A stretch of DNA of 44,192 nucleotides from an uncultured Saprospiraceae bacterium (GTDB lineage: Bacteria; Bacteroidota; Bacteroidia; Chitinophagales; Saprospiraceae), in NCBI GenBank assembly GCA_937981555.1, contig CALJOK010000034.1:1-44192 (forward strand), in the 5' to 3' direction. The translations under genes and the position numbers were made by a program. Positions within the stretch are counted from its first letter, which is position 1. Every line of letters begins with the position of its first letter. The notes beneath the pieces are model-generated. The model did no database searches. It was not told the origin of the DNA and saw only the letters and a program-made list of their open reading frames with translations. Of this stretch, positions 20,197 to 24,758 are shown in pieces.

Positions 20197-20238
20197 CCCG
20201 AATTTTCAAAATGGAAATTCGGGGTTTTCTTTTTTTTT
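20197..20238 (+). terminator. intrinsic terminator after the FN3-like gene
   Basis: CCCGAATTT (20197-20205) pairs with AAATTCGGG (20215-20223), followed by TTTTC and nine Ts. Confidence 0.88.
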
Positions 20239-20249
20239 AAACTATACTG

Positions 20250-20686
20250 TTATCGCTTCGCTAATTGTTAAACGGTTAGTGTTAGAGGAAAATTAATAAT
20301 AAAATCGTAACTATTCAGCAGGAAGCATCGCTATGCGCTGCGATGGTTTTTATTGTTATTTTTCTACCAAGGGGAATGGCGCTATGCGCCGATTACAATA
20401 GAGCAAGGATTCAAAATAGTTTACGGCGCATAGCGCCATTCCCATTGGTAGCAGCAGGGAGCATCGCTATGCGCTGGGATGGTTTTATTGTTATTTTTTT
20501 CTACGAATGGGAATGACGCTATGCGCCGATTACAATAGAGCAAGGATTCAAAATAGTTTACGGCGCATAGCGCCATTCCCATTGGTAGTAAATATAAAAA
20601 ATACAATCTTGCAGCGCATGGCGATGCACCCTGCTGAATAGTTACATTAGACATAGTGCAACAATTTAACTTTAGCAAAGCGAAAA
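20250..20686. repeat. nested inverted-repeat element 1
   Basis: Three layers. The outer arms, 20250-20272 and 20665-20686, are imperfectly inverted (core TCGCTT.GCTAA...GTTAAA). The middle arms are GTAACTATTCAGCAGG (20307-20322) and its exact complement at 20630-20645; the match continues about 18 bp inward with few mismatches (GCATCGCTATGCGCTG). The core holds two copies of a module of about 136 bp (20318-20453 and 20454-20590), each with a stem of about 27 bp around GGCGCTATGCGCC. No transposase is encoded. Element 2 (22911-23095) shares the middle-arm word. Confidence 0.85.
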
Positions 20687-20834
20687 CCGTTCAAGAATTT
20701 ATAAAACCTCCGCTTTGATTAGGTGAAAAAGAACTATCCTAAAAATTCGAGATGATTCATGTTTTTTTAATTTGTCGCCCTCCCCTTTCTTTTCCAAAAA
20801 AAGCACACATCCAACAACATCTTTCCCTTCTTTC

Positions 20835-20865
20835 TTGTTCCAACAACTTATTAAAATTACCTTTG
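20835..20865 (+). promoter_or_regulatory. promoter of the amidophosphoribosyltransferase-like gene
   Basis: TTG (20835-20837), 20-nt spacer, TACCTTTG (20858-20865): a full match to the Bacteroidota vegetative consensus. The leader would be about 35 nt. Confidence 0.7.
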
Positions 20866-20906
20866 CAAAAAATTAGATTTCTATAACGGTTTTTAAACTG
20901 AATTTG

Positions 20907-22799
20907 ATGAGTGATCAAATAAAACATGAGTGTGGAATCGCAATGATTCGTCTTCTCAAACCTTTAGAATACTATCAAGAAAAATACGGCTCTTCGCTGT
21001 ACGGCATGCAAAAACTGCAACTGCTGATGCAAAAAATGCGAAACCGTGGACAAGACGGAGCAGGTGTGGCAACCATTAAATTAAATCCCAAACCAGGGAA
21101 AAGATATATTAGCCGCCGCCGAAGCAATAGCCCACAATATCTTAAAGATGTGTTTGAAGGAATATTCAAACGCTTTCGAGAACTCCCTCCTGAAAAATTA
21201 CAAAATTCCGCTTGGCTCAAAGAAAACATGCCCTACACGGGTGAGTTGCTCATGGGGCATTTGCGCTATGGAACGCATGGGGTAAATACGATCGAAACTT
21301 GTCATCCATTTTTGAGACAAAATAATTGGATCAGTCGGAACCTTGTGGTGGCTGGGAATTTTAATTTGACGAATGTGGATGAGATGTTTGAAGAGTTGGT
21401 AACCTTGGGACAATATCCAAAAGAGAAATCTGATACTGTAACGGTCATGGAAAAAATCGGACACTTCCTCGATGATGAAGTACAACGATTGCACAATTGG
21501 CACAAGCAAGAAAATATCTCTACAGAAGAATTGAATGATTTGATTATTAGAAATGTGGATGTGCAACGAGTGCTAAAGAGAGCAAGTAAGAAGTTTGATG
21601 GTGGTTATGTGATGGGAGGAATGATTGGTCATGGGGATGCATTTATGATGCGAGATCCGAATGGAATTCGACCGGCTTATTTTTTCCAAAACGAAGAAGT
21701 GGTGGTAGCAGCATCGGAACGTCCTGCGATTCAAACTGCCTTTGATGTTCACTTTAGTAAAATTCAGGAGCTACAACCTGGTCATGCTTTGATTATCAAA
21801 AGAGATGGGGATGTTGCGGAAAAACAATTTATTCAACCTTCGGAAAGAAGGTCTTGTTCGTTTGAGCGAATTTATTTTTCGAGAGGAACGGATAAAGAAA
21901 TTTATGAAGAGCGAAAAAAGTTGGGAGAAATTCTAGCAGACGAAGTATTGGAAGCGGTAGATTATGATTTTAAAAATACGGTGTTCTCCTACATTCCAAA
22001 TACGGCAGAGACTTCATTTTTAGGTTTGGTAGAAGGAGTGGAAAACCGATTGAATGATTTGAAGCGAGAAAAAATCATGAGCCTCAATGGCGAATTGAAA
22101 GATAAAAAATTAGAAAAATTATTAGCGCTTAAGACACGGGTAGAAAAAGTTGTAGTGAAAGATGCGAAGCTCCGAACTTTTATCGCTGCTGATAATGATC
22201 GAAGTGCATTGGTTTCACATATTTACGATGTGACTTATGGTGTAGTGAAAAATGAAAAAGATAATTTGGTTTTGATTGACGATTCGATTGTACGAGGCAC
22301 GACTTTAAAAGATAGTATTATCCAGATGGTGGCGAGATTGCGACCGAAGAAAATTGTTATTGTTTCTTCTGCTCCGCAAATTCGCTTTCCAGATTGCTAT
22401 GGAATTGATATGTCAAAAATGAAAGAGTTTGTGGCATTTCGAGCTTTGGTTGAATTGCTTCATGATAATAATAAGGAGTACCTTTTGGAGGAAGCTTACG
22501 ACCGTTGCAAGGCGCAAGAAGGTTTGCCTGCCGACCAAGTAACGAATGAAGTGAAATCGCTTTATGATACTTTTTCTTACAAAGCTATTTCTAAAAGGAT
22601 TGCAAAAATCATTACACCAAAAGGTATCAAACCAAAAGTGGAAGTGATTTATCAACCAATTGAAGCGTTAAAAATTGCTTGTCCAGGTCATACGGGGGAT
22701 TGGTATTTTTCAGGAAATTATCCAACGCCTGGTGGGAATCGAATTGCTAACCGAGCGTTTATGAATTATATGGAGAAAAGTGATGTGAGGGCATATTAG
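20907..22799 (+). CDS. amidophosphoribosyltransferase-like protein (long PurF homologue)
   Basis: A 630-residue class II glutamine amidotransferase fused to a phosphoribosyltransferase domain. PurF itself converts PRPP and glutamine to phosphoribosylamine, the first step of purine synthesis. HECGIAMIRL places the amidotransferase Cys at residue 9, so a short propeptide must be removed to expose it. NRGQDGAG, MGHLRYGTHG and GGYVMGGMIGHGDAFMMRDP follow the Ntn-hydrolase pattern. LVLIDDSIVRGTT (about residues 455-467) is the PRPP loop. It is well over 100 residues longer than ordinary PurF, through an N-terminal insert (about 55-105) and a C-terminal extension, as in a Bacteroidota-specific form. 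Whether this is the only PurF in the genome cannot be told. Start: ATG 20907; a TTG lies one codon earlier. Confidence 0.88.
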   Translation: MSDQIKHECGIAMIRLLKPLEYYQEKYGSSLYGMQKLQLLMQKMRNRGQDGAGVATIKLNPKPGKRYISRRRSNSPQYLKDVFEGIFKRFRELPPEKLQNSAWLKENMPYTGELLMGHLRYGTHGVNTIETCHPFLRQNNWISRNLVVAGNFNLTNVDEMFEELVTLGQYPKEKSDTVTVMEKIGHFLDDEVQRLHNWHKQENISTEELNDLIIRNVDVQRVLKRASKKFDGGYVMGGMIGHGDAFMMRDPNGIRPAYFFQNEEVVVAASERPAIQTAFDVHFSKIQELQPGHALIIKRDGDVAEKQFIQPSERRSCSFERIYFSRGTDKEIYEERKKLGEILADEVLEAVDYDFKNTVFSYIPNTAETSFLGLVEGVENRLNDLKREKIMSLNGELKDKKLEKLLALKTRVEKVVVKDAKLRTFIAADNDRSALVSHIYDVTYGVVKNEKDNLVLIDDSIVRGTTLKDSIIQMVARLRPKKIVIVSSAPQIRFPDCYGIDMSKMKEFVAFRALVELLHDNNKEYLLEEAYDRCKAQEGLPADQVTNEVKSLYDTFSYKAISKRIAKIITPKGIKPKVEVIYQPIEALKIACPGHTGDWYFSGNYPTPGGNRIANRAFMNYMEKSDVRAY

Positions 22800-22834
22800 A
22801 CTCAAGTATTCAAAAGAAAAAATATCAAATAAAA

Positions 22835-22873
22835 CAGGGAACTATTTTTTATAAATAGTTCCCTGCTTTTTTT
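22835..22873 (+). terminator. intrinsic terminator after the amidophosphoribosyltransferase-like gene
   Basis: CAGGGAACTATTT (22835-22847) pairs perfectly with AAATAGTTCCCTG (22853-22865), followed by seven Ts. Confidence 0.92.
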
Positions 22874-22910
22874 GGAGATAAAAAATAAAGTACGAACCAG
22901 CATTTTCATT

Positions 22911-23095
22911 TTTACTACATTGGCACATAAGAAAAATCGTAACTTTTCAGCATGGGAGAAAAGTATGGGCGAATTTATTCGCCTAATGAATCCTATAGCT
23001 TAAACTAATAGTGATGGGCGAATGAATTCGCCTGTACTATATCCATGCTGAATAGTAACGAAAAATCTATGTTTACTATGTGCCTATGTGGTAAA
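22911..23095. repeat. nested inverted-repeat element 2
   Basis: Outer arms TTTACTACATTGGCACATA (22911-22929) and 23077-23095 match 17 of 19 as inverted repeats. Inner arms at 22939-22955 and 23043-23059 carry GTAACTTTTCAGCATGG and its near complement (15 of 17). The core has two palindromes, GGCGAATTTATTCGCC (22968-22983) and GGCGAATGAATTCGCC (23017-23032). The inner-arm word GTAACTWTTCAGCA is shared with element 1. Confidence 0.85.
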
Positions 23096-23168
23096 AAAGA
23101 CTAGAGGTTTTCTGCCAGAGGATTTGTCTAAGAACCATAAAGTTTCAGTTTCATAAGGAAACGTCTGT

Positions 23169-24590: not shown

Positions 24591-24595
24591 GTTTA

Positions 24596-24755
24596 TTAAT
24601 GGTTAACTGTTAATGGTGAATTCTAGGTTTGTATTAATTGTAAATACATTCATTCTAAAAAAAAAGATGTTATCTCATTACGAAGATAACATCTTTTTTG
24701 AAGGGATTAATCGTCAATCCTATAGAGGTATTAACCATTCACAGTTAACTATTAA
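24596..24755. repeat. inverted repeat pair enclosing a terminator
   Basis: The 22-nt arms 24596-24617 and 24734-24755 are inverted copies with 2 mismatches (core AGTTAACT). Between them lies the perfect hairpin at 24661-24698. A third copy of ATTAACCATTCACAGTTAA (24730-24748) occurs at 27698-27716. Confidence 0.75.
24657..24698 (-). terminator. terminator of the M42 peptidase gene
   Basis: AAAAAGATGTTATCT (24661-24675) pairs perfectly with 24684-24698 across an 8-nt loop. On the minus strand a T run follows (A run at 24657-24665 on plus). Confidence 0.9.
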
Positions 24756-24758
24756 TCA

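Follow-up and report, generated by a model that had tools for sequence, protein, structure and literature searches.

The locus examined here raises the question of what the nested inverted repeats are that stand on either side of an amidophosphoribosyltransferase-like gene (20907-22799), and which enzyme could have carried them there. It lies in a stretch of 44,192 nucleotides from an uncultured Saprospiraceae bacterium (assembly GCA_937981555.1, contig CALJOK010000034.1, positions 1 to 44,192; hereafter the window), and the window's genome assembly comprises 7.25 Mb in 117 contigs. Briefly, we consider it highly probable that the two intergenic repeats, elements 1 and 2, are miniature inverted-repeat transposable elements (MITEs) of the IS66 type which moved in trans and have exchangeable, mostly palindromic cores, the core of element 2 being linked to RAYT proteins and element 2 itself being nested in an older repeat.

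Common ends, unrelated interiors and the IS66 family

A 14-bp word shared by the two elements was found at 20307-20320 (plus strand), 20632-20645 (minus), 22939-22952 (plus) and, with one mismatch, 23046-23059 (minus). Six matches to the word at up to two mismatches were counted in the window against 0.79 expected, and none of 100 shuffles reached six, so the two elements of the same build with a common word, from which the original prediction had started, are present at the places given and far above chance. The word (GTAACTWTTCAGCA) forms the ends of a dispersed MITE, as its terminal inverted repeat (TIR). Ends of an identical type enclose unrelated interiors, and inner palindromes occur in both elements and differ between them, as had been foreseen.

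Element 1 (20307-20645) is a 339-bp MITE with a core of type B, made of nested GGAGCATCGCTATGCGCTGC and CTACCAATGGGAATGGCGCTATGCGCC palindromes, and is bounded by the TIR GTAACTATTCAGCA in plus orientation on the left and in minus orientation on the right. Beyond what the original prediction described, its core unit has been duplicated in tandem (20316-20588, consisting of 20316-20451 and 20452-20588) with a period of 136-137 bp, a duplication missing from five other type B copies in the alignment; an inner inverted pair of CTACCAAGGGGAATGGCGCTATGCGCCG and its reverse complement occupies 20364-20451, with a second copy at 20501-20588. Element 2 (22939-23059) is a 121-bp MITE with a core of type A, in which paired GGCGAATNNATTCGCC palindromes are 49 bp apart. 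These two repetitive extragenic palindromes (REPs), GGCGAATTTATTCGCC at 22968-22983 and GGCGAATGAATTCGCC at 23017-23032, stand in inverted arrangement. An 8-bp target duplication, GAAAAATC, flanks element 2 on the left (22931-22938) and on the right (23060-23067). There is no transposase gene in either element; a mechanically called open reading frame (ORF) of 85 aa on the minus strand (20421-20678) overlaps element 1 and extends beyond its end, and the window's ORF list holds none of 80 aa or more that overlaps element 2.

In the window's genome, the word was matched 30 times at up to one mismatch, versus five for a reversed control pattern, and the genuine pairs fall into the two core types. 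Type A elements measure 120-124 bp with two GGCGAATNNATTCGCC palindromes at the same spacing as in element 2; type B elements measure 203-204 bp and contain nested CGCTATGCGC palindromes. The type B copies at L007, L008 and L014 lack the internal duplication; element 1 is a type B element that has it. Element 2 is identical to four other type A copies at 117-119 of 121 bases and the five agree mutually at 117-120 of 121, from which we infer that the spread of type A is recent. Sixteen word pairs were listed, of which five were excluded before duplications were counted (an overlapping alternative at window position 22702, L003 with a decayed left end, the chance pairs L011 and L015, and an alternative in L014). 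Among the 11 retained, seven carry a perfect 8-bp target duplication, with 0.83 expected from shuffled pairs, and none carries a perfect duplication of 4-7 or 9-11 bp. The mobility of the element family is therefore well supported.

An autonomous partner was found in relatives. In a genome of the same family (G091), word-bearing contig ends hold the last codons of a transposase, and the 42-residue tail of this protein, used as a query, gave matches in 11 of 298 genomes; in a genome of the same genus (G267), a C-terminal transposase piece adjoins the TIR at a contig end. The locus L082, from a same-family genome, holds a complete insertion sequence (IS) of 1518 bp with a single ORF of 486 aa. 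Both its TIRs read GTAACTATTCAGCA, identical over 14 bp to the TIR in the window, and AAATATTC stands on each side as an 8-bp duplication. Perfect 8-bp duplications were also seen in nine of 13 further full-length ISs with variants of the TIR (10/14 including L082). Three of the transposases were assigned to the IS66 family by profile, reaching 275-290 bits against NF033517 (transpos_IS66) and 142-147 bits against PF03050. For ISDge4, of the ISBst12 group, the available part of the source gives the TIRs GTGACTACTCAGCA and GTAACTGCTCAGCA, an 8-bp repeat and observed transposition (PMC12898284). Because the same TIR and 8-bp duplication recur in a complete IS66 element, and a nearly identical TIR with an 8-bp repeat in ISDge4, elements 1 and 2 are, as judged from sequence, MITEs of single-ORF IS66 insertion sequences (ISBst12-like group), and the combination of TIR and duplication suggests that an IS66 transposase mobilised them. 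With the perfect duplications in seven of 11 elements and the TIR identity to L082, the earlier suggestion of a MITE family mobilised in trans, with the signature of a DDE transposase, has held. A small subterminal hairpin (TTCAGC...GCTGA) lies beside the TIR at one or both ends of L082, L084 and L094.

The cores and a RAYT-like gene

The palindrome that forms the core of element 2, here called GGCGAAT, was found at 44 places in the window's genome at up to one mismatch (88 rows over both strands), which by manual count are 11 pairs at a spacing of 49, ten pairs at 25-43 and two singles. Of the pairs at spacing 49, ten lie within type A shells, in some of which a TIR has decayed; neither the eleventh (L034) nor any of the ten pairs at 25-43 is bounded by a TIR on each side. 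Two of the TIR-less pairs (L025, 5858-5903 and 6680-6725) flank a RAYT-like Y1 gene at L025 6010-6675, about 106 bp upstream and 4 bp downstream of it, and its protein matches PF01797 with 26.5 bits, above the Pfam cut-off. None of 12 TIR-less places has TIR-like words (up to three mismatches) on both sides within 90 nt, and two of them (a third place in L025, and L027) have one on one side. Beyond this genome the palindrome is essentially absent from the four other genomes of the genus, with a single mismatched place in G226.

In the TIR-less L034 pair (contig C96), the palindromes are 49 bp apart and the sequence between them is related to the type A spacer; the core could have come from this place, or the place could be a decayed shell. 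Two direct repeats, nearly identical and each about 42 bp long, enclose the pair (CCCGCTGGCGATAC...GTAGTACCAAGCATTTAAG; L034 about 600-770, near 4047 of C96 in G000). Another RAYT-like gene (L029, 1255-1911) is flanked, within 1045-2070, by several copies of a different palindrome, ACGTGGCTGTCTGCTTTAGCAGACC.

For the core of element 1 the picture is another one. All 13 exact matches to GGCGCATAGCG in the window's genome lie inside type B elements, two of which have decayed TIRs (L003, L031), and neither dispersed shell-less copies of the type B core nor an association with RAYT was found in that genome. The original prediction had proposed a Y1, RAYT-like enzyme as one possible agent, and this link stands for the inner palindrome of element 2, whose TIR-less relatives flank a RAYT-like gene; for the core of element 1 none was found.

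It could be argued from these data that a Y1 RAYT alone moved the whole family as REPINs (REP doublets forming hairpins) or bacterial interspersed mosaic elements, GTAACTATTCAGCA being part of a long REP arm, since RAYT-like genes are present in the genome, one of them flanked by the same palindromes, and the palindromes are paired and inverted. Two observations oppose it: exact 8-bp duplications are a DDE signature (7/11 in the window's genome and 68/126 of the listed elements in the survey described below), and the same TIR bounds both full IS66 elements and cores unrelated to the RAYT palindrome. To our knowledge, Y1 elements make no target duplications. Mobility by RAYT alone was rejected on the strength of the duplications and of the IS66 TIR, and we regard it as very improbable.

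Older repeats around the elements and the host gene

The notion of palindromes inserted into one another proved correct for element 2. The element stands within an older host palindrome (the ACCACATAGGCACATAG family; left arm 22906-22937, right arm 23069-23100), and once the element and one copy of the duplication are removed, its flanks make up one copy of a palindromic repeat (ACCACATAGGCACATAGAAAACATAG, loop, inverse) with a decayed left arm. The ACCACATAGGCACATAGAAAACATAG family, which has a variable loop, has at least 33 other matches in the genome by manual count (62 whole-query matches, with 40 of 170 candidates scored; see also L274-L288), and uninterrupted copies align across the insertion point of element 2, in the loop or at its edge. 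Element 2 thus interrupts an older copy of a palindromic family, and the nested appearance arises because it landed in that repeat, at or in the loop.

Outer inverted repeats, which the original prediction had placed in three gaps, exceed their shuffles in all three, with scores of 21, 20 and 26 versus maxima of 19, 13 and 17.5 (300 single-base shuffles each). Around element 1 this holds weakly: the arms (left 20233-20277, right 20660-20706) form a weak inverted repeat, barely exceed the shuffle maximum and match nothing else in the genome. The left arm resembles a core from G168 (score 21.5, above all 300 shuffles), and the score of the right arm against the same core was reached by 53 of 300 shuffles. 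The third gap (24595-24756) contains, as predicted, an outer inverted repeat (24595-24638 and 24706-24756) around a hairpin (24660-24699), with arms of a different family; no IS66-type TIR is present, and no GTAACT word was found there at up to two mismatches. Its arms belong to a separate dispersed palindrome family (TTAATGGTTAACTGTTAATGG arms) with about 23 other matches, and enclose a 16-bp hairpin with T tracts.

A general preference for insertion into palindromes was rejected by a test of flank complementarity. At z above 4 it was seen in two of 11 elements of the window's genome (both in the window), and in 0 of 19 sister-genome elements, 0 of 121 survey elements and 0 of 12 full-length ISs; at z above 3 the counts were three, none, three and none, respectively.

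The gene between the two elements has orthologues in three of the four other genomes of the genus, with proteins 82-92% identical. In none of these three does either element stand beside the orthologous gene, and no word at up to one mismatch occurs on those contigs; within 1.5 kb of the orthologues, scattered words at two or three mismatches were seen, with none in G267. Sites without the elements, which the original prediction had suggested looking for, are thus present in the genus, and the elements are not fixed at this position. The downstream aminotransferase gene keeps its place behind the orthologue in G078 and G226, as in the window, and neither element is present there. The amidophosphoribosyltransferase-like gene is a bystander. 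Its protein (630 aa) gives weak Pfam matches to class II glutamine amidotransferases (best 6.9e-06).

These data bear directly on the idea that elements 1 and 2 are the ends of a composite transposon carrying this gene. TIRs do face outward on both elements, and the outer flanks ATAAAATC and GAAAAATC match at six of eight positions. However, element 2 owns a perfect 8-bp duplication, the cores of the two elements differ, the outer flanks agree at just those six positions, and the gene and its downstream neighbour keep the same order without the elements in two relatives. Flanks ending in AATC were also found at unrelated full-IS insertions (L107 and L109; 2/14), so the likeness may perhaps be due in part to target preference. 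The proposed composite unit is hence not upheld, and we give it next to no credence.

The same comparison speaks to whether the repeats might be RNA or terminator structures conserved at a fixed position, as their strong hairpins between genes, and the position of element 2 between convergent genes, could suggest. Against this stand their absence at three of three orthologous sites in the genus and the presence of copies at many unrelated sites, and in Rfam four matches up to E = 1 were obtained, none near its gathering score, on which ground this explanation was rejected; we hold it to be extremely unlikely.

The favoured IS66-type MITE explanation would run as follows. A single-ORF IS66 insertion sequence, ISBst12-like, would have given rise to non-autonomous derivatives which kept the 14-bp TIR GTAACTWTTCAGCA. 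An IS66 transposase would act in trans at these TIRs, which together with the duplication are seen directly, the enzyme for these copies being the presumed part, and would insert the elements at A+T-rich targets, of which 8 bp are duplicated. What lies between the TIRs, the core, would be exchangeable and usually palindromic. That of element 2 would be a RAYT-linked repeat pair riding inside the ends of another system, where the shared sequence is observed and the direction of capture is presumed. Element 2 landed in the older repeat copy, at or in its loop, as the uninterrupted copies show.

Several observations weigh against this explanation. The flanks of element 1 (ATAAAATC and ATTAGACA) contain no recognisable target duplication, so that element 2 has the 8-bp duplication and element 1 does not; four of the 11 elements in the window's genome have no perfect 8-bp duplication, and four of the 14 full-length ISs (L084, L094, L101 and L104) have no direct one. 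An IS66 transposase (PF03050) was not found in the window's genome by profile search, so that the helper is deduced from relatives; the 117-contig assembly may lack a collapsed IS. On the side of the cores, the RAYT-like gene at L025 scores 70.9 bits to NF047646, below the NCBIfam cut-off of 80; the L034 pair also shares a few bases with the MITE outside the palindromes, so that it is maybe a decayed MITE and not an ancestor; and the type B core has no shell-less copy in the window's genome.

The same ends in other genomes and in known systems

The word is not confined to this site, as exact copies of it were found in 18 of 150 family genomes, among them that of the window. Within the genus, it was matched at up to one mismatch 81 times in G168 and 35 times in G267 (reversed control 5 and 4), and three and five times in G078 and G226 (control 1 and 0), where the matches may be due to chance. 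From G168 and G267, 40 stretches were fetched, of which 28 gave a TIR pair and 12 none. Their cores differ from those in the window, several are common to both genomes, and many are palindromic by eye. A perfect 8-bp duplication was found in 16 of the 28 pairs, a count biased by the use of the duplication in choosing boundaries, and the 19 pairs with seven or eight matching duplication bases entered the fold and flank-complementarity tests.

For a wider survey, we screened one genome per species of 84,980 species (genome_contigs) for an exact left and a near-exact right TIR 104-164 bp apart. At least 114 stretches were obtained, part of what exists, from at least about 46 assemblies as counted by record prefixes. 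Among the matches listed are Desulfobacterota-type lineages, Gammaproteobacteria, Mariprofundaceae, Bacteroidetes, Spirochaetes, Nitrospirota, Chloroflexi and several Clostridia. Re-read at up to one mismatch per TIR, the listed stretches contain at least 126 distinct elements, of which 68 of 126 have perfect 8-bp duplications (0.68 expected); duplications of 5-7 or 9-11 bp were not seen among them, and those of 4 bp twice (1.6 expected). As these elements are not independent, we also counted clusters, and in 20 of 38 at least one element carries a perfect duplication. A phmmer search of the survey stretches (two queries, E 0.01) detected neither a RAYT nor an IS66 gene. Minimal palindromes of 30-36 bp, two TIRs with a few bases between them, were noticed at L047 (1501-1536), L043, L062 and L249; of these, L047 alone has a perfect 8-bp duplication (CAAAAGGT, by eye), and either a 36-bp element moved there or a larger element lost its core.

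Given the diversity of the cores, their folding was compared with that of neighbouring DNA. Interiors of elements from the window's genome, sister genomes, the family and the survey (158 elements, after dropping those below 60 nt or containing N) were grouped into 47 clusters with one member taken from each, and z-scores were computed against dinucleotide shuffles with 20 bp trimmed at each end. A z below -3 was obtained for 33 of 47 interiors versus six of 89 flanking windows (p = 3e-16); eight interiors lie above -2, so a strong hairpin is not universal. Shell-less matches to the survey cores were found for 25 of 125 core queries, all in three loci among the survey stretches (L128, L156 and L213), and the idea that the cores are in general captured REPINs is accordingly unsupported beyond the window's genome.

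These results leave room for a fold-back origin of the cores, compatible with IS66 mobility, in which an IS66 end and the neighbouring host sequence were duplicated in inverted form by template switching, so that any sequence could become a palindromic core and the cores would not be captured repeats. Such an origin would account for the strong folding of most cores regardless of sequence (the 33 of 47 clusters above), for the rarity of shell-less cores in the surveyed stretches (25/125 queries, three loci), and for the fact that the same core meets the TIR at differing depth, symmetrically in both arms of L258, versus L231 and L236. The core of element 2 fits it poorly, as this repeat pair is dispersed in its own right, with copies next to a gene of the RAYT-like kind, and each of its REPs is palindromic by itself. 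We regard the fold-back origin as possible but doubtful. The sister-genome loci just named share one core (TAACCGCCAACTTCAGTTGG...) joined to the TIR at different depths, and the symmetric junction in the two arms of L258 hints at arm-to-arm copying. A broader idea, speculative and in our judgment unlikely, is that the IS66-type TIR shell, of about 14-17 bp per end, serves as a cross-phylum vehicle for palindromes into which unrelated hairpins, repeats of RAYT systems among them, were repeatedly swapped, the hairpin being selected as an aid to transposition or replication, for instance through pairing of the ends in a cruciform or single-stranded state.

Palindromes are abundant between bacterial genes, and for many of them the spreading enzyme is unknown. 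With IS66-type MITEs as the explanation, a single DDE transposase family would supply the ends for dozens of unrelated, mostly hairpin cores across several phyla, and in one genome a RAYT-linked core would join two separate mobility systems in a small element. This provides a concrete candidate helper, the IS66/ISBst12 transposase, and a signature, GTAACTATTCAGCA with an 8-bp duplication, for the annotation of such repeats. The system is mostly explained by known parts, that is, IS66-type MITEs; what is unusual is the exchangeable, mostly palindromic core, which is in one case RAYT-linked. Our literature search, with most subscription papers outside its scope, found no paper that prints GTAACTATTCAGC or its complement, and none that contains both ISBst12 and MITE.

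Among known systems, the ISBst12 group of IS66 has, as the available part of the ISDge4 paper describes it, a 14-base TIR of the same type (GTAACTGCTCAGCA), one transposase ORF and an 8-bp duplication (PMC12898284); unlike these ISs, the elements in the window have no transposase ORF, retain the TIRs alone and have mutually unrelated cores. Type II prokaryotic MITEs resemble them in that they match their parent IS in the TIRs alone, form stable stem-loops and lie mostly between genes, according to the main text of a review, in which IS66 has no occurrence (PMC10969869). The MITEs of Cardinium are related to ISCca4, a different IS, and one IS66 element is listed in the accessible portion of that report (PMC9769881). 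REPINs and RAYT-associated REPs, as presented in the available sections of their description (PMC3116915), resemble the core of element 2, which likewise consists of two short palindromes in inverted arrangement and has relatives on both sides of a RAYT-like gene; in contrast to them, the pair of element 2 lies inside DDE-type TIRs with an 8-bp duplication, and the tetranucleotide beside it is GTAC and not GTAG. For known REPs, GTAG and CGTC are described as tag classes (PMC3733652); such tags beside the palindrome are common but not universal. The closest precedent found, as far as the available part of the paper goes, is QMITE2 of Coxiella burnetii, which has TIRs, duplications of 7-11 nt and a REP in its interior, and whose truncated copies look like plain REPs (PMC5896051). 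QMITE2 forms one MITE family whose members share one kind of core, and the name IS66 does not occur in that part of the text, whereas here one TIR bounds dozens of unrelated cores in several phyla.

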